The notes beneath the pieces are model-generated. The model did not search any database and was not told the DNA's origin. It saw nothing but the letters and a program-made list of their open reading frames with translations. This document shows positions 2,826 through 21,190 of a stretch of DNA of 28,189 nucleotides, piece after piece. A program made the position numbers and the translations under genes. The first letter of the stretch is position 1. The number at the start of each line of letters is the position of its first letter. Source of the DNA: a virus; the IMG/VR virus record IMGVR_UViG_3300028025_005737, positions 1 through 28,189 of that record; one strand, 5' to 3'.

Positions 2826-3020
2826 ATGAGTACAGCAAACCAACAATTAACATCCGTAAAAGTAGACAAAGATCTATTCGAAGAATTCAAAATAAATTCA
2901 ATCAAAATGAAATTCAGCCTTCAAAAGTTATCTGAGCGGGCAATGTTTCTATACAATACTGACCCTGAATTTAGAAAAATGATACATAAAGTTGAAGTAA
3001 ACTTGAGTAAGCCAGAATAG
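2826..3020 (+). CDS. Small ribbon-helix-helix-like protein
   Basis: 64 residues. A short strand (TSVKVDKDLFEEFK) followed by two predicted helices (NSIKMKFSLQKLSERAMFLY) fits a ribbon-helix-helix fold, in which paired N-terminal strands contact DNA in dimeric repressors. The C-terminal DPEFRKMIHK is typical of small phage proteins of this kind as I recall them. A DNA-binding regulatory role is an inference from the fold pattern; no operator could be assigned. It has its own promoter-like site and is a single-gene unit before the endonuclease at 3049. Confidence 0.72.
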   Translation: MSTANQQLTSVKVDKDLFEEFKINSIKMKFSLQKLSERAMFLYNTDPEFRKMIHKVEVNLSKPE

Positions 3021-3048: not shown

Positions 3049-3972
3049 ATGTTTACTGATAAAACATTAATATTCATTGATAAGGCTAACACTAAACATA
3101 ACCATGTTTATGACTATTCCTTAGTCAACTATATTAATGCTAAGACTTATATAGACATAATATGTCCACAAAACCATACTTTTAAACAAACACCCAATGA
3201 TCATCTTAATGGTCATGGTTGTAAAGTATGTTCTGGGTGGGGTCAAATTAAATTTAATCCTGATGAGTTCATAAATCGAGCAAAGGAAGTACATGGTGAT
3301 CTATATGATTATTCAAAGTCTGAATATATAGAGCATAACACTCCCCTTATAATAATATGTCAAGAACATGGTGAATTTGAACAATCCCCAAAATCCCACT
3401 TAATCAAAAAATACGGGTGTCCTAAATGTGGGATATCTGTAAGGGTAAATAAGTTAAGGTGGTCTTTAGACAAATTCATCATTGAATCCAATAAAGTACA
3501 TAGGGGAAAATATGACTATTCAAAATTTAAATATATTACATTTGGGAGTAAATCTGAAATACTCTGTAAAACTCATGGTTTATTCCTCCAAACACCAAAA
3601 GACCATATCATCCAAAAACAAGGATGCCCCAAATGTGGATTATCTAAAGGCGAAAGCATCATCCAGTATTATCTTATAGACAACAATATCCAATATTCCA
3701 CTCAAAAAACATTCCCCGATTGTATTAATCCTAAATCAAATAGAAAATTAAAATTTGATTTTTTCATCCCCCATCTTAATATGTGTATTGAATTCGATGG
3801 TAAACAACACTTCGAAGAGGCACCACGATTCAAAAGTGAACTATCCCATATACAATATAGAGATGAAATTAAAAATAAATATTGTCTTGATAACCAAATC
3901 AGTCTTATTCGAATAAAATATTTGGATATTAAAAAAATAAGTAGTATATTAGACAATATATTTAAACAATAA
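3049..3972 (+). CDS. Homing-type endonuclease: zinc-ribbon repeats plus Vsr-like nuclease domain
   Basis: 307 residues. About three tandem repeats of 60-70 residues fill positions 5-205, each starting F..(R/K)A...H...YDYS.V.Y and ending in a zinc ribbon (GCKVC, GCPKCG, GCPKCG), the repeat seen in DUF723-type phage endonucleases. The C-terminal domain (from ESIIQYYL, near 205) contains KFDFFIP and CIEFDGKQHFEE followed by RD and LIRIKY, the pattern of Vsr-like EDxHD homing nucleases such as I-Bth0305I. It is a free-standing gene between a small regulator and a glycosyltransferase gene whose 5' end is interrupted (4071). The likely function is mobility by cutting related phage DNA nearby; the exact target is not shown by the sequence. 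Confidence 0.85.
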   Translation: MFTDKTLIFIDKANTKHNHVYDYSLVNYINAKTYIDIICPQNHTFKQTPNDHLNGHGCKVCSGWGQIKFNPDEFINRAKEVHGDLYDYSKSEYIEHNTPLIIICQEHGEFEQSPKSHLIKKYGCPKCGISVRVNKLRWSLDKFIIESNKVHRGKYDYSKFKYITFGSKSEILCKTHGLFLQTPKDHIIQKQGCPKCGLSKGESIIQYYLIDNNIQYSTQKTFPDCINPKSNRKLKFDFFIPHLNMCIEFDGKQHFEEAPRFKSELSHIQYRDEIKNKYCLDNQISLIRIKYLDIKKISSILDNIFKQ

Positions 3973-3989: not shown

Positions 3990-4073
3990 ATGTCAAACAA
4001 TTTAAAATCTACTCGTCGTCACGTTGAGAAAGAATACCGTCGCAAGATTCTTCTCATCGCTGACGACATCTAA
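3990..4073 (+). pseudogene. 5' fragment of the GT4 gene, cut off by in-frame TAA
   Basis: The ATG at 3990 (context CAAGTTAT before it) opens 27 codons ending in KILLIADDI and then TAA at 4071. Reading on in the same frame gives V-R-V-F-S-G-V-A-T-V-A-R-E, which is the continuation expected of the first strand and glycine loop of a GT-B glycosyltransferase (DDIR..SGVAT.ARE). The interruption is exactly six bases, TAAGTT, between the Ile and Arg codons. Removing it restores one open frame from 3990 to 5504. TAA is an ordinary stop in the neighbouring genes, so it is unlikely to be read as a sense codon throughout the genome. Whether this is a real mutation, an insertion scar or an assembly error cannot be decided here. 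Confidence 0.65.
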
Positions 4074-4091
4074 GTTAGAGTATTCTCTGGA

Positions 4092-5504
4092 GTGGCTACT
4101 GTCGCTCGCGAACTCGTAACAAACACATGCCATCACTACAATTATGTTTGTATTGGCGGAGCTATCAACCACCCTGAAGCTGGTAAACGTTTAGATCTAT
4201 CTGTAGATACAGCTAAAGTATCTAGAGTTGAAGATGCATCTGTATTTTTATACCCAGTAAGTGGGTATGGTGATGCTAATTTAATTCGTACACTATTAAA
4301 AACTGAGAAACCGGATGCGATATTATTTGTGACTGACCCGAGATACTATGAATGGTTATTTGCTATCGAGAATGAAATCCGTAAGCAGATACCAATGATT
4401 TACCTTCAAATATGGGATAGCCCAGTGCCATACCCACTATGGAACAAATCATATTATGAATCATGCGATATGTTATTGGCAATTTCTAAACAAACCAAAA
4501 ACATAAACAAGGTTGTGTTGGGAGACATTCCATACACGGACATAGACAACGCAATATCTAATTTTGACAGTAATGATTCAAATAGAAACTCACCTATTCT
4601 ACTATCCTACCTCCCACACGGTTTAAACCACAACACATTTAAACCATTAGACCCAGCAACACCTGAGCTAGTTGAATACAAGAACAAACTATTCAAAGGT
4701 AAAGAATATGATTTTACATTATTCTTCAACTCCAGAAACATGCACCGTAAACATGTTCCAGACACATTATTAGCGTTCCGTTTATTTTTAGACAAATTAA
4801 CACCTGAACAAGCACAAAAATGTGCTCTAGTAATGCATACCGAACCAGTAAGCGATCACGGTACAGATTTAGTTGCTGTAATTGACTACTTGTTGGCTGA
4901 TTATAAATCAAACATTTACTTCTCGACTGACCGTAATTCACCTGAAACAATGAACTTGCTGTACAATTCAACAGATGCACAGATCTTGTTAAGTAGTAAC
5001 GAAGGATGGGGGTTATCACTTACGGAAGCAATATTAGTTGGTAATCCAATCGTAGCAAACGTTCAAGGTGGTATGCAAGACCAAATGCGATTTGAAAACG
5101 AAAACGGTGAATGGCTAGATTTTACAGCTGATTTCCCTTCAAACCACCGTGGAACATATCAAAACCATGGCGAATGGGCGTTTCCTGTATTCCCGTCAAA
5201 CATTTCCATCCAAGGTTCACCTAAAACACCGTACATTAGTGACGACAGATGTAGACCTGAAGATGCAGCTGAACAAATATTCAACGTATATTCACTTGAG
5301 GCAAGTGAAAGAAAACGTAGAGGTTTAGCCGGTAGAGAATGGGCACTAAACGAGGCTGGATTCACAAGCGAAATCATGGGCGAACGTGCCATCAAAGCAA
5401 TCGATACATTATTTGATACGTGGGAACCTAGAGAAACATTTGAATTAGTAAATGCTACTTCGTATACTCCAGACACAACTAGAAACACTAAATTAATCTA
5501 CTAA
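4092..5504 (+). CDS. GT4-type glycosyltransferase, N-terminus separated by a stop codon
   Basis: 470 residues from the first usable codon, GTG, after the in-frame TAA at 4071; the intact ancestral gene would run from 3990. The protein is a GT-B fold retaining glycosyltransferase: an N-terminal Rossmann half with THE/TDPRYYEWLF- and YLQIWDSPVPYP-type segments, a central FNSRNMHRKH segment opening the C-terminal half, and the nucleotide-sugar binding E-x7-E signature in NEGWGLSLTEA (E304 and E312). Starting at 4092 it would lack the first beta strand and glycine-rich loop, so activity depends on readthrough, reinitiation with complementation, or it is lost. It is followed at 9 bases by a second GT4-type gene. 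Likely role: adding a sugar to a phage or host glycan. Confidence 0.8.
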   Translation: MATVARELVTNTCHHYNYVCIGGAINHPEAGKRLDLSVDTAKVSRVEDASVFLYPVSGYGDANLIRTLLKTEKPDAILFVTDPRYYEWLFAIENEIRKQIPMIYLQIWDSPVPYPLWNKSYYESCDMLLAISKQTKNINKVVLGDIPYTDIDNAISNFDSNDSNRNSPILLSYLPHGLNHNTFKPLDPATPELVEYKNKLFKGKEYDFTLFFNSRNMHRKHVPDTLLAFRLFLDKLTPEQAQKCALVMHTEPVSDHGTDLVAVIDYLLADYKSNIYFSTDRNSPETMNLLYNSTDAQILLSSNEGWGLSLTEAILVGNPIVANVQGGMQDQMRFENENGEWLDFTADFPSNHRGTYQNHGEWAFPVFPSNISIQGSPKTPYISDDRCRPEDAAEQIFNVYSLEASERKRRGLAGREWALNEAGFTSEIMGERAIKAIDTLFDTWEPRETFELVNATSYTPDTTRNTKLIY

Positions 5505-5513
5505 AACAAAGTT

Positions 5514-6812
5514 ATGAGTTCAAACAATCCTACATGCGTCTTTTACGGCGCGATAGATACTTTTTCAGGCTATGGCGCGAGAGCGCGCGATATTGCGCGA
5601 GCATTAATCGATATCAAAGGTGAAGAGTGGGACATTAAAATTATTTCATGTCGTTGGGGTAACACACCCCAAGGCTTCATCGAGGACAACCCTGAATGGT
5701 CATTTTTAAACGAACATATTCTTCCAAACCCACAATTAACATACAAACCGGATTTTTTCTTCATGAACACAATCCCATCCGAATTTCAAGCAATAGGGGG
5801 ATTTAATTGTGGGATTACCGCAGGAATTGAATCCACTATAGCACCATCGGATTGGGTTGAAGGATGTCAACGTATGGATTTAGTGTTAGGTTCATCTAAA
5901 CACACAGTTGATATTTTACGTTCAAGTAAATTCCATAAAGTAGACAAGAATACAAACCAAAACATCGGTTTAATTGAGTGGACTAAACAAGGCGACACAT
6001 TATTGGAAGGTGTTGACTTAAACACATACAAAGTAACAGATGTTAATTCATCCGAATTTAACCTAGACACAATACCAGAAAAATTCTGCTATTTATTTAA
6101 CTCTATGTGGGTAGGTAATGCACCAATTGGTGAGGACAGGAAAAATGTAGGCTTGCTAATTAAGTTGTTCCTTGAACTATTCAAAAACAAGAAAAATACT
6201 CCTGCACTCATCCTAAAAACAAGCACTGTTTCAGCATCGTACACAGACCGTGAAGAATTACTTAAACGAATCAATGCAATTAAAAAAACAGTTGTAGCGA
6301 ATACACTCCCAAACATCTACTTGTTACACGGTGAATTTACAGATACTGAAATCAATAATTTGTACAACCACCCAAAAGTAAAATGTATGGTTTCATTAAC
6401 CAAAGGAGAAGGTTGGGGACGTACGTTATGTGAATTTTCAGCAATAAACAAACCAATCATCACTACTGGTTGGAGTGGGCAATTAGACTATTTAAAACCT
6501 GAGTTTACTGCGCTTTTAGGCGGTACTTTAACGCCTATCCATTCATCTGCAGCGAACAATATGCTCTTAAAAGAAGCGAGCTGGTTTAGCGCTGATATTC
6601 AACAGGCATCAAACGTAATTTTAGACATGTTCGACAATTACAAGAAATATGCTGAGTTAGCTAAACGCCAGGGTTACCACACTCGAAACAATTTTTCATT
6701 CGACAACATGAAAGACAAATTGAAATCCATACTTGACGCACTACCTACACCAGTTAAACAAGTCCAATTAACGTTACCAACTTTACCTAAACTTAAAAAA
6801 ATAGAACAGTAA
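5514..6812 (+). CDS. GT4-type glycosyltransferase
   Basis: 432 residues, ATG after AAAGTT. GT-B architecture: N-terminal YGAIDTFSGYGARARD (glycine loop), GITAGIES and VLGSSKHTVDILR in the first domain, then a C-terminal domain with ILKTSTVS, the E-x7-E signature in KGEGWGRTLCEF (E299 and E307) and TGWSGQLDYL. The substrate is not predictable. It forms a tandem with the interrupted GT4 gene upstream and overlaps the next gene by one base (TAATG). The DNA of codons 11-30 is strikingly GC-rich for this genome, with four GCGCGA copies. Confidence 0.87.
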   Translation: MSSNNPTCVFYGAIDTFSGYGARARDIARALIDIKGEEWDIKIISCRWGNTPQGFIEDNPEWSFLNEHILPNPQLTYKPDFFFMNTIPSEFQAIGGFNCGITAGIESTIAPSDWVEGCQRMDLVLGSSKHTVDILRSSKFHKVDKNTNQNIGLIEWTKQGDTLLEGVDLNTYKVTDVNSSEFNLDTIPEKFCYLFNSMWVGNAPIGEDRKNVGLLIKLFLELFKNKKNTPALILKTSTVSASYTDREELLKRINAIKKTVVANTLPNIYLLHGEFTDTEINNLYNHPKVKCMVSLTKGEGWGRTLCEFSAINKPIITTGWSGQLDYLKPEFTALLGGTLTPIHSSAANNMLLKEASWFSADIQQASNVILDMFDNYKKYAELAKRQGYHTRNNFSFDNMKDKLKSILDALPTPVKQVQLTLPTLPKLKKIEQ

Positions 6813-8813: not shown

Positions 8814-9657
8814 ATCACCATTAACATTTTGCATATCAACATACAATAATTTGGATTATCTTAAATTAGCTGTTCATTCCGTTAGGAAGAACAGCTTTTT
8901 TAGCGATGCTCCATTCATTATTCATGCTGAAAACTGTACTGATGGTACAGATGAGTGGTTAGAACAAAATTCGGAGCAATACAATATAACTTATTTCGTT
9001 GATAAAAACGAAGTACCTGTTGGTATAGGCGGTGGAATGAACTTTTGCGCGGACCGCGTTGAAACTGAGTATATCATGTTTTTACACTCAGATTTTTACG
9101 TTGGTAAACATTGGGACAAAGCATTACTAGATGTAATCGAACGTTACCCAAACGAAAAGTTATGGGTGTCATCCCATAGAATGGAACCAAACATGTTCAA
9201 TAATCCATCATCTAGACCAGGAACATACATTATAGACAAAGAAATACTTGGTGCATATCATCACGATTTCAAATCTAATGAATTTGAAGCATTTGCCCTT
9301 GAATTTATGAGCGCCAATGGTTCATATGAAATACCTAAAGGTGAAGGCGTATCCGGTTTAATCCGTAAAAGCGACTGGAATGAAATAGGTGGAAACGACC
9401 CTATATTTGCTCCAGCTAGTTGGGACGACATGGACCTGTTTTTAAGAATGTTAGACAATGGGTTTAGATTCATACTAACTGGATCCTCATTAGTATGGCA
9501 TTTTGGGGCTCGCGGTTCACATAGACTTGAAGAAAATGATGGTAAGTCATCTCAACGTCAAATTGAAGCAGAACAAAAGAATGTTCAAAAATGGTTGTCT
9601 AAGTGGGGAAAGCTTCCTATATTCAACGAAGTAGGAATGATTAACGGATTAAAATAG
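8794..9657 (+). CDS. GT2-type glycosyltransferase
   Basis: 287 residues. GT-A domain: LTFCISTYNNLDYLKLAVHSV, then HAENCTDGTDEW (nucleotide-binding acidic loop), GIGGGMNFCAD, and an HSD (98-100) in place of a classical DxD in FLHSDFYVG. The C-terminal part GVSGLIRKSDWNEIGGNDP, FAPASWDDMDLFLRM and VWHFGARGSH is clearly shared with the glycosyltransferase at 11827, so these two are paralogues. It starts inside the end of the cupin gene. Probably transfers a sugar during assembly of the same glycan. Confidence 0.88.
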   Translation: MTTIENKSPLTFCISTYNNLDYLKLAVHSVRKNSFFSDAPFIIHAENCTDGTDEWLEQNSEQYNITYFVDKNEVPVGIGGGMNFCADRVETEYIMFLHSDFYVGKHWDKALLDVIERYPNEKLWVSSHRMEPNMFNNPSSRPGTYIIDKEILGAYHHDFKSNEFEAFALEFMSANGSYEIPKGEGVSGLIRKSDWNEIGGNDPIFAPASWDDMDLFLRMLDNGFRFILTGSSLVWHFGARGSHRLEENDGKSSQRQIEAEQKNVQKWLSKWGKLPIFNEVGMINGLK

Positions 9658-11108: not shown

Positions 11109-11830
11109 TGTTAATAGCTACACTAAATCATAATCTCCCAGATCTCACGGATAATCTCGTAAACCAATTAAAACGAGATCCATTTTTTAATCAATGTGAA
11201 TTAGTAGTTGTAGATAACGGTTCTAAAGAACAATTAGCAAAATCAACCACCCACCGTTTAGAAAACAATGTTTTCTTTGGTGGGGGGTTTAATGTTGTTT
11301 TAGAATATTTCCTATCTACAGATCACGAATATTTATATTTTTTAAATAATGATCTAATATTTCATGGTCCATCATTCTTAACTACTTCATACAATGAAGC
11401 CAAATACTCAGATGCTACAGTATACTCACCATCGGTAATCAATGCATCTGTAGAACAATGTCATTGGAAACAAATGTGGAATTGGGGTAAAGGATTAAGA
11501 AATGTGGATTGGGTTGATTTTCAATGCCCATTGATCCACCGCAGAGTACTAGAGCAAATCAAACATTACCCCGATGAATTAATTTATGGGTGGGGATTAG
11601 ATTTCTATACAGGATGTATTACAAAACAAAATAATTGGAATACAGTAGTATCTGATAATAACACCATATGTCATTTGAATTCACAAACATTCAAACAAAA
11701 CAAGATTGATATTGGAGTAAGTGAATTTTGTCAACAAGCAGATTTAAGAATGAATAATTTCTTTTTGAATTCTGAGTTTAAAGACGTATATTTCGAATTA
11801 AGAAAACACGGAGAAACCTATAGCATATGA
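11108..11830 (+). CDS. GT2-type glycosyltransferase
   Basis: 240 residues. Short GT-A N-terminus: MLIATLNHNLPDLTDNL, VVVDNGS (nucleotide-binding aspartate), FGGGFN, and LNNDLIF as the metal-site strand with N-N-D rather than DxD. The middle holds CPLIHRRVLEQI and YGWGLDFYTG, where an acidic residue could be the catalytic base. The stop overlaps the next gene as ATGA. Likely part of the same glycan-building operon; acceptor unknown. Confidence 0.84.
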   Translation: MLIATLNHNLPDLTDNLVNQLKRDPFFNQCELVVVDNGSKEQLAKSTTHRLENNVFFGGGFNVVLEYFLSTDHEYLYFLNNDLIFHGPSFLTTSYNEAKYSDATVYSPSVINASVEQCHWKQMWNWGKGLRNVDWVDFQCPLIHRRVLEQIKHYPDELIYGWGLDFYTGCITKQNNWNTVVSDNNTICHLNSQTFKQNKIDIGVSEFCQQADLRMNNFFLNSEFKDVYFELRKHGETYSI

Positions 11831-19203: not shown

Positions 19204-19539
19204 ATGGCAAATAATTTAGACAAACAATACACAACATTACTGCAAGACATCTTGGATAACGGTCATCAAAAAGGTGACCGTACAGGAACGGGAACTATAT
19301 CAGTATTTGGTAGACAGATCAGACATAAGATGTCAGAAGGATTTCCACTTCTTACCACAAAGAAAATGTATATGAAAGGAGTTATTGCAGAATTATTATG
19401 GTTCTTACGTGGTGATACAAACATTAAATTCCTTGTTGATAATAATTGTCATATTTGGGTAGGAGATTCCTTTTCTAACTACATGAAGGAATATGAAAAA
19501 TATAAACAATCTCAAGAAAATGTTGAGAAGGAATGTTAA
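19204..19539 (+). CDS. thyA: Thymidylate synthase, N-terminal part (split gene)
   Basis: 111 residues. It contains the conserved N-terminal ThyA segments: [17 protein letters not shown] (dUMP phosphate-binding arginine), [39 protein letters not shown] and the start of the following helix, [14 protein letters not shown]. The protein then ends after about 15 polar residues ([10 protein letters not shown]). The catalytic cysteine and the rest of the fold are in the separate frame starting at 20387, with a GIY-YIG endonuclease gene between. The site is an exposed linker between conserved blocks, so the two pieces could fold together into an active enzyme, as shown for the phage Aeh1 NrdA split. 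Activity of the split form here is inference. Confidence 0.85.
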
Positions 19540-19576
19540 ATTTGGAATTTTCATATATTTATAATAAAATAATATT
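19540..19576 (+). promoter_or_regulatory. AT-rich leader with weak promoter-like motif before endonuclease
   Basis: 37 bases between thyA-N and the endonuclease start. TTTTCATATATTTATA resembles the genome's promoter core (CATATATT for CGTATATT). Too short to hold a group I intron core. Confidence 0.35.
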
Positions 19577-20383
19577 ATGAGTGTAGGGATTTACAAAATT
19601 ACAACCCCAAGTGGTAAAATTTATATTGGGCAATCAACTAATCTTGAAAAAAGAGAAGATGATTATATAAAACTTAGATGTGGTAAACAACCTAAACTGT
19701 ATAATTCTCTTAAAAAACACGGATGGGAAAAACATAAATTTGAAATAGTAGAAGAGTGCATTGTAGAACAATTAAATGAAAGAGAAATATATTGGGGATT
19801 ATACTATGATGTTTTAGGAGAAAATGGTCTAAATTTAAGATTAGGAGATGCTAATGGGTTATGTAGTCAAGAAACTAAAGATAAAATAGGTTTATCTAAC
19901 TCGGGACCTAAACCTAACGGGTTTAATCAAAAATTAAGTAAACCCGTTTTACAATTTGATAAACAAGGTATCTTGATAGCCGAATATACTTCATATAACA
20001 ATGCAGTTAAAATTACAGGTTTACGTTTAGCTGAAGTTTTAAGAGGAGCTGCTAAAACCGCAGGTGGATTTATTTTTAAATACAAAGATGACTGGGATGG
20101 AAATCCACCAATGATAAAACCCCATGGTAAAATAGGTAAACCGTCGTCTCTTAAGGGTAGGGTTAGCCCCACTAAAGGTAAATCAATAAATAAAAAGCCC
20201 AAAACAGAAGAATTTAAAAATAAGTTAAGCAAACCCATATTACAATTAGATTTAGAAGGTAATATTATATATGAATTTAAATCACAAACTGAAGTAAAAC
20301 AATTATTAAATATAGACCCTCAGAATGTTTTAAGAGGAAAAACTAAAACAGCAGGTGGTTATAAATGGAAATATAAAATATAA
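19577..20383 (+). CDS. GIY-YIG homing endonuclease with NUMOD modules
   Basis: 268 residues. The nuclease domain has GIY at 4-6 and YIG at 16-18, the catalytic arginine at R26 and glutamate at E70 in NEREIYW, as in I-TevI. The DNA-binding tail contains SQETKDKIGLSNSG (NUMOD3-like), then two NUMOD1 modules: KPVLQFDKQG..NAVKITG...VLRGAAKTAGGF.FKY and KPILQLDLEG..VKQLL...VLRGKTKTAGGYKWKY, linked by a second NUMOD3-like stretch. It is inserted within the thymidylate synthase gene with no room for an intron, so it probably moves by DNA cleavage and repair. In-frame with the following thyA piece across TAA-GTT-ATG. Confidence 0.92.
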   Translation: MSVGIYKITTPSGKIYIGQSTNLEKREDDYIKLRCGKQPKLYNSLKKHGWEKHKFEIVEECIVEQLNEREIYWGLYYDVLGENGLNLRLGDANGLCSQETKDKIGLSNSGPKPNGFNQKLSKPVLQFDKQGILIAEYTSYNNAVKITGLRLAEVLRGAAKTAGGFIFKYKDDWDGNPPMIKPHGKIGKPSSLKGRVSPTKGKSINKKPKTEEFKNKLSKPILQLDLEGNIIYEFKSQTEVKQLLNIDPQNVLRGKTKTAGGYKWKYKI

Positions 20384-20386
20384 GTT

Positions 20387-21190
20387 ATGAAATTTAAAAA
20401 AGAAGATTTACATGAAAGTGGCAGACCACTCACACAAGAAGAATTCATAAACAAAATCAAAACAGATGATGAGTTTGCTAAGAAGTGGGGTGATTTAGGC
20501 CCCGTATATGGTAAGCAATGGAGAGAGTGGAAACAATTTATCCCATATGATGTAACATCCGAAAATTGTAAAGTCGCTGTTAAAATAACTGACCAAATAG
20601 CAAATGCAATCCATCACCTAAAAACAAACCCAGACGATAGAGGTATCATCGTTTCAGCTTGGAATGTTGGTGAATTAAATAATATGGTTTTACGACCTTG
20701 TCATTATGGATTTCAAGTTTATACAAGAGAGTTGAGTAATGAAGAAAGATGTAAATTAGCTGTTAATGAAGGATGGATGGATAAATCCGTTTTAGACGAT
20801 ATAGATGGCGTAAACCACATACAAACTACTTGGACTTTAAATGCTAATAATACCCCAACAAGAGCAATCTCATTGATGTGGAATCAACGAAGTGTAGATA
20901 CTGGGTTAGGGTTAGGTTTTAATATAGCAAGCTATGGATTGCTATTAGAAATAATAGCAAAAGAAGTTAATATGGTTCCTGATGAACTCATAGGGAATTT
21001 AGGAGACGTGCATTTGTATTTGGATCATGTAGAACCAATTAAAGAACAATTAAATAGAGATCCATTTAATCTACCTAAATTAAAAATTAAGGATAAACAG
21101 GTGAATGATATCTCTCAATATATTGTAAGTGATTTTGAATTGATTGATTATCAATTCCACCCGCCCATTAAACTTCCATTATCAAATTAA
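20387..21190 (+). CDS. thyA: Thymidylate synthase, C-terminal part (split gene)
   Basis: 267 residues. After a linker beginning MKFKKEDLHESGR come LTQEEFINKIKTDDEF, KWGDLGPVYGKQWR, NPDDRGIIVSAWNV, the active-site cysteine C105 in LRPCHYGFQVY, MWNQRSVDTGLGLGFNIASY and GNLGDVHLYLDHVEPI, all core ThyA elements. It lacks the N-terminal region carried by 19204-19539. The residue before the catalytic Cys is Arg-Pro rather than Pro-Pro. ATG preceded by TAAGTT, whose TAA is the endonuclease stop. It is presumably translated on its own and pairs with the N-terminal fragment to make dTMP. Confidence 0.88.
   Translation: MKFKKEDLHESGRPLTQEEFINKIKTDDEFAKKWGDLGPVYGKQWREWKQFIPYDVTSENCKVAVKITDQIANAIHHLKTNPDDRGIIVSAWNVGELNNMVLRPCHYGFQVYTRELSNEERCKLAVNEGWMDKSVLDDIDGVNHIQTTWTLNANNTPTRAISLMWNQRSVDTGLGLGFNIASYGLLLEIIAKEVNMVPDELIGNLGDVHLYLDHVEPIKEQLNRDPFNLPKLKIKDKQVNDISQYIVSDFELIDYQFHPPIKLPLSN

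Follow-up and report, generated by a model that had tools for sequence, protein, structure and literature searches.

The window analysed here, the whole 28,189-nt stretch of DNA in IMG/VR virus record IMGVR_UViG_3300028025_005737, contains a GT-B glycosyltransferase (GT) gene in which the six bases TAA-GTT (4071-4076) come after codon 27 (Table 1). The frame begins with ATG 3990 and reads MSNNLKSTRRHVEKEYRRKILLIADDI up to the TAA, which is followed by GTT and then by RVFSGVATVAREL, and it continues until 5504; the sequence after TAA-GTT, running to this last stop, is RVFSGVATVARELV. The reading KILLIADDI-stop-V-R-V-F-S-G given in an earlier note on this DNA was confirmed by translation and by two other loci, L001 (95% amino acid identity) and L002 (86%), which have the same stop and GTT. 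Since the site recurs in contigs from other metagenomes, the stop and GTT are real, and the assembly error that the note had offered as one explanation was excluded.

Table 1. Features of the interrupted glycosyltransferase locus in the window
Feature	Position	Strand	Basis
Small conserved upstream gene, constant locus neighbour	2826..3020	+	Gene order common to carriers and L032
Free-standing homing-endonuclease-like gene (treble-clef/DUF4379, DUF723)	3049..3972	+	Pfam; position upstream of the element
ORF1, GT N-terminus MSNNLKSTRRHVEKEYRRKILLIADDI, 27 codons and TAA	3990..4073	+	Frame translation; homologue alignment
5' stem-loop, arms about 4015-4036 and 4045-4067	4015..4067	+	Ends directly ahead of take-off codon
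Proposed take-off codon ATC (Ile)	4068..4070	+	Last sense codon ahead of stop
In-frame stop TAA adjoining take-off codon	4071..4073	+	TAA, TAG or TGA here in all elements
Proposed landing triplet GTT	4074..4076	+	RTY (CTA if take-off is CTT) ahead of resume codon, 11/11 gap sequences
ORF2, rest of GT-B/GT4-like glycosyltransferase, 475 codons from resume codon AGA	4077..5504	+	Pfam; omega; homologue fold

ORF2 matched the Pfam family Glycos_transf_1 (9e-8), and the fold predicted for an uninterrupted homologue, L007, was GT-B (pTM 0.83), with Foldseek matches of this model to 3oy2 (3e-14) and to GT4-type enzymes in the PDB. As modelled, the two-domain fold with a C-terminal Glycos_transf_1 region assigns the protein to the GT-B (GT4-like) enzymes, and locates the junction to the loop that follows the core strand beta-1 (beta1-alpha1 loop). 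DD[IL]-R stands without a stop or extra residues in 78 of the 80 homologues closest in IMG/VR; homologues with two residues at the junction, which the note had named as evidence against an insertion, were not found among these 78. The GT of L032, which is closely related and lacks the endonuclease upstream, begins MENKLGYVPKDQRKKILLIADDIRVFSG with no insert, and in Flavobacterium phage immuto, a cultured relative of the carriers, the gene is uninterrupted and has neither a stop nor a strong hairpin. An origin of ORF1 from another gene was rejected, as a peptide search of known phages gave only the ordinary GT homologues in phage immuto.

Interruptions of other kinds were also seen in this gene. 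In L032 (6150-6790) a different endonuclease-like gene divided the GT at the domain linker, and the second half had a restart codon; in L153 and L154 the GT lay in overlapping ORFs about 160-168 codons into ORF2, at about the place of L032's linker, with no endonuclease between. A mid-gene split similar to that of L153 and L154 in Microcystis phage Mel-JY01 (L181) was rejected as the same element, being another kind of interruption. In L002, which carries the proposed bypass, 31 residues of the N-terminal domain were lost in frame from ORF2 (6050-6065), which may impair the enzyme.

The gene order PD-(D/E)XK nuclease, small gene, endonuclease (where present) and GT was alike in carriers and L032. 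The product of the homing-endonuclease-like gene in the window has 307 residues (Pfam DUF4379 2.6e-8, DUF723 2.2e-6) and is called an endonuclease by family and position only. Elsewhere in the window a phage-encoded Sir2-family protein (1760-2422, Pfam 3.6e-36) was identified, and thyA (19204-21190) lay in two ORFs, 19204-19539 and 20387-21190, the second with its own ATG, with a GIY-YIG endonuclease gene (19577-20383) between the halves. The TAAGTT at the thyA junction, which had been connected with that in the GT, is put down to chance, the window containing 30 copies against 30.15 expected.

The same architecture at the same gene position was found in 25 contigs, the window included, which were collected from IMG/VR through KILLIxDDI-stop, the ORF1 peptide and the looser pattern RxKI...DD[IL]-stop, each match being read. 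Common to them is an ORF1 of 25-29 codons ending in DDI or DDL, a strong hairpin ending beside its last codon, a stop, a gap, and the sequence from the conserved Arg onward. The stop came directly after the take-off codon in 25/25 contigs, with TAA, TAG and TGA all used; the take-off codon was ATT, ATC or CTT in all elements, and every ORF1 allele preserved the beta-1 strand RKKILLxxDD[IL] with hardly a change as far as the junction. Eleven gap sequences were present, with lengths of 5, 6, 8, 9, 39 or 41 nt by the T4 convention: ATC taaGTT AGA (window, L001, L002), ATT taATT AGA (L152, L154-L158, L161, L163, L164), ATT taGTC AGA (L153), ATT tgaGTT AGA (L162), CTT tgaCTA AGA (L159), ATC taaaaATT AGA (L172, L174), CTT tgaggCTA CGA (L179), ATT tgaggaATC AGA (L173, L175, L177, L178), ATT tgaagaATT AGA (L176), and gaps of 39 nt (L180) and 41 nt (L170), each ending in ATC and followed by AGA. 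The frame is kept by gaps of 6, 9 and 39 nt and shifted +2 by those of 5, 8 and 41 nt, so that the two sides could not be joined in all of them by any one readthrough or frameshift. A hop to the triplet ahead of the Arg would restore the family sequence in every case.

Carriers fell in several separate clades of a GT tree in which uninterrupted homologues were sampled around the window, as expected of a mobile element. L156 and L161 had identical ORF1 and an ORF2 dS of 1.2, which indicates that carriers exchange the cassette, so that the alleles are not independent. The window and L002 were identical over 74 nt around the site, which is suggestive and not decisive, as cassette transfer would also account for it, and another 75-nt run occurred at 9634. 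In a survey of the loci collected up to then, hardly any other sense-strand gene had an in-frame stop, which argues that such stops are not tolerated at random in these phages. Second copies of the element elsewhere in the carrier contigs gave no convincing match, weak opposite-strand matches being the palindrome itself, and two patterns searched in bacterial and archaeal genomes gave no true match, the five matches of the second pattern being unrelated.

The 57 bases up to the stop in the window form a stem-loop with its 3' foot against the last codon; the earlier note missed this hairpin and the relatives with other gaps. Over codons 1-27 it had an energy of -21.9 kcal/mol, and 0/2000 synonymous recodings were equally stable. 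The ILLIADD codons in its 3' arm differed from those of L032 at nearly every synonymous site, a comparison which indicates that the protein KILLIADDI was kept while the RNA changed. All 15 hairpin alleles lay between -19.5 and -29.1 kcal/mol, with synonymous z of -5 to -9 (the hairpin of L155, taken from its longer record, had -27.1 kcal/mol), and no strong hairpin was present in the 78 uninterrupted homologues (minimum -13.3, median -7.4 kcal/mol). Over 13 gap-free aligned alleles, 83% of stem cells were in standard pairs versus 21-49% with the strands slid, and 7 stem pairs had changes on both sides. The lower part of the stem, about 9 bp, adjoins the take-off codon, and its closing could shift the mRNA over a distance similar to the short gaps. 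The 5' stem-loop of T4 gene 60 is not unusually stable in the synonymous test (z -0.7), so this test is no proof of a hairpin motor. Two more strong hairpins of the window, which rank with its most stable 57-mers, occur in open genes of the glycosyltransferase region (8851-8920 and 11230-11310), with no stop adjoining.

A 10-bp GC hairpin inside the gap (-18 kcal/mol) was found only in the two long gaps, with equal spacing, beginning 6 nt past the take-off codon, and would cut the effective distance to about 15-17 nt. The motif CCCCCTTG-N9-AAGGGGGAAAAG was common to both gaps (L170 9338-9366, L180 3319-3347), the two carriers being only distantly related, and occurred nowhere else in IMG/VR, which suggests a mobile gap hairpin.

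As far as pairing can be judged from the sequences, one rule fits all gaps: the tRNA that decodes the last codon of ORF1 is able to pair also with the triplet ahead of the Arg. An RUY landing triplet followed an AUY take-off codon in nine gap sequences and CUA followed CUU in two, the latter pair occurring in two loci far apart in the GT tree (L159, L179). The first two bases of landing and take-off were identical in 8/11 gap sequences, and the other three, that of the window among them, had G for A. By chance, RUY is expected at a site with a probability of 0.07 and CUN with 0.05; as the alleles are related, these values were not multiplied into one probability. In the window AUC and GUU are not identical, and re-pairing of tRNA-Ile GAU with GUU would need two G-U wobbles beside one U-A pair. 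The landing triplet is probably a leftover native Ile or Leu codon, and its match to the take-off codon may be partly due to ancestry and not to selection.

ORF2 is under purifying selection. Omega of the window versus L001 and L002 was 0.03-0.09 in both domains; this value is open to the objection of a late cassette, because of the identical ORF1 and diverged ORF2 of L156 and L161. The objection was answered by two other comparisons: L157 and L158, with a common element, differed in ORF2 by about 10.5 synonymous versus about 1.5 nonsynonymous changes (P about 1e-5), and L170 and L177, with gaps of 41 and 9 nt, were diverged in both ORF1 and ORF2 (ORF2 dS 1.5, omega 0.09). From selection and homology, a single protein is predicted to be made from the two disjoint ORFs.

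The putative endonuclease gene lies directly beside the altered target gene, by which the locus would be a homing-endonuclease-linked mobile cassette. A family of the DUF723 type was directly upstream in the window, L001, L153, L157/158/164, L159, L161/163, L172/174 and L176, often overlapping the GT start, and an HNH-like gene took its place in L170. Only a 3' remnant (last codons) was left in L152 and L156, with possible remnants in L154 and L155. Neither endonuclease nor remnant was found at the locus in L002, L162, L173/177, L179 and L180; L002 has the insert and lacks the endonuclease also across the rest of its 37-kb contig. Because several carriers have a remnant only or no endonuclease, the bypass could outlive the nuclease. 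The element was not found beside other relatives of the endonuclease. It probably arose in the endonuclease's homing cassette, and protection from the neighbouring endonuclease is a plausible origin of the interruption, as argued for T4 (PMC5009743).

Very likely, the stop and GTT form a coding gap which ribosomes would bypass in a programmed stop-hop, with the 5' hairpin as the driving element. The ribosome would read ORF1 to AUC 4068-4070, with UAA then in the A site, and the peptidyl-tRNA-Ile would detach from AUC. The stem-loop just behind the ribosome would refold as a motor, pulling the mRNA backwards, and the tRNA would re-pair with GUU 4074-4076, six bases on. Translation would restart at AGA 4077, giving one glycosyltransferase of 502 residues with the normal DDI-R junction of the family. 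The element would travel with the free-standing homing endonuclease and outlive it. It is likely that the loci together form a phage family of hairpin-driven hops, in which the gap of a single gene evolves between 5 and 41 nt and natural in-frame stop hops (6, 9 and 39 nt) are included.

Termination followed by re-initiation, in which a 27-aa ORF1 peptide would be released and a separate ORF2 protein started at the triplet ahead of the Arg or at GTG 4092, is improbable. Split genes with their own restart codons are known in these phages (the window thyA, the L032 GT) and the distance from stop to restart is short, but the restart triplets would be GTT, GTC, ATT, ATC or CTA and never ATG, and the product would lose the core strand beta-1, which ORF1 keeps in every allele. 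A little less probable still is a broken gene, in which stop, gap and recoded 5' end merely shield the DNA from the endonuclease and no glycosyltransferase is made. The endonuclease linkage and the L002 deletion would fit it; against it, in carriers ORF2 has stayed open and purifying selection acts on it, including between carriers with a common element, and protection of DNA needs neither a covarying RNA hairpin nor a tRNA-compatible landing triplet. The scar of a lost endonuclease insertion, one option of the earlier note, is likewise disfavoured, if taken as a bare scar in a dead gene, by purifying selection on both sides and by the conserved hairpin.

A readthrough of the stop in the window, which would give DDI-X-V-RVFSG, combined with other mechanisms at the sister loci, is very improbable. 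The window insert happens to keep the frame on both sides of the stop, which is not the case in the relatives with 5-, 8- and 41-nt gaps, and these frame-shifting elements have the same hairpin, position and endonuclease. Readthrough would also lengthen a loop that has extra residues in no homologue; other window genes end in TAA, and no suppressor tRNA was found in the window. The programmed event in the earlier suggestion of programmed readthrough was therefore retained and the readthrough dropped, since the sister gaps change frame. Removal of the gap bases at the RNA level or by transcriptional slippage is hardly to be credited: the protein outcome would be the same and nothing direct favours it, while the gap sequences are not slippery runs and no known RNA family (Rfam) was found in the window. 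We know of no bacterial mechanism that excises 5-9 nt.

The stop-hop proposed for the GT gene has its nearest counterpart in T4 gene 60, where programmed translational bypassing over a 50-nt gap is linked to mobA (PMC11194080, PMC5009743), the 5' stem-loop is thought to be a motor pulling the mRNA (PMC5009743), and the nascent peptide and a take-off loop are also needed (PMC11194080). Read with the same script, gene 60 (NC_000866) had take-off GGA, stop TAG, landing GGA and resume codon TTA. Alike in both are the stop directly after take-off, the landing triplet directly ahead of the resume codon, the stem-loop 5' of take-off (here in all 15 alleles), the shortness of ORF1, with 46 codons in T4 and 25-29 in the GT genes, and the free-standing homing endonuclease nearby, against which the gap may have protected (PMC5009743). 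Unlike the topoisomerase gene of T4 with its Gly codons, 50-nt gap and MobA, the present sites are separate in sequence and have a glycosyltransferase, Ile or Leu codons, many alleles and lengths of gap (mostly 5-9 nt) and a putative endonuclease of the DUF723/treble-clef kind; the 5' hairpin is much stronger and adjoins take-off, and short-gap members lack a gap hairpin. A take-off stem-loop holding the take-off and stop codons was not found, the short gaps, the window's included, being too short for it, so the GT sites would be a variant and not the T4 element itself.

Synthetic stop-hops were obtained with +5 and +6 steps in reporter constructs with matched codons (Weiss et al. 1987, reviewed in PMC5009743), and no natural in-frame stop hop was known to the 2016 review (PMC5009743). 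The GT sites resemble them in that nine bases across the stop would encode one amino acid and in the +5 and +6 steps, and differ in that the codons of the window are only wobble-matched. The byp elements of Magnusiomyces capitatus, 81 sites in many genes, are read by mitochondrial ribosomes, and mRNA context is not believed to matter for their bypassing; the GT sites lie in one gene, with a conserved hairpin. In T4-like phages, intergenic seg/mob endonuclease genes lie beside their targets and spread by co-conversion of flanks (PMC2988022); the position is the same here, with cleavage putative and the nuclease family different. No earlier report of this GT bypass family was found in the literature searched, which lay mostly outside subscription journals.

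Knowledge of high-efficiency bypassing in phages comes almost entirely from T4 gene 60; with the 15 hairpin alleles and 11 gap sequences that single case would become a comparative system. Natural variants would then show how the length of the gap, the hairpin, the stop codon and the match of the codons trade off against each other, and small reporter constructs could test it. The family would also be a warning that automatic annotation takes such genes for broken ones. If the proposed hop is true, natural in-frame stop hops exist, which the 2016 review gives as unknown (PMC5009743), and a second, separate bypass site is linked to a homing endonuclease, with the bypass having outlived the endonuclease in several phages. 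Such a case would add weight to the view that recoding sites arise through homing endonucleases.
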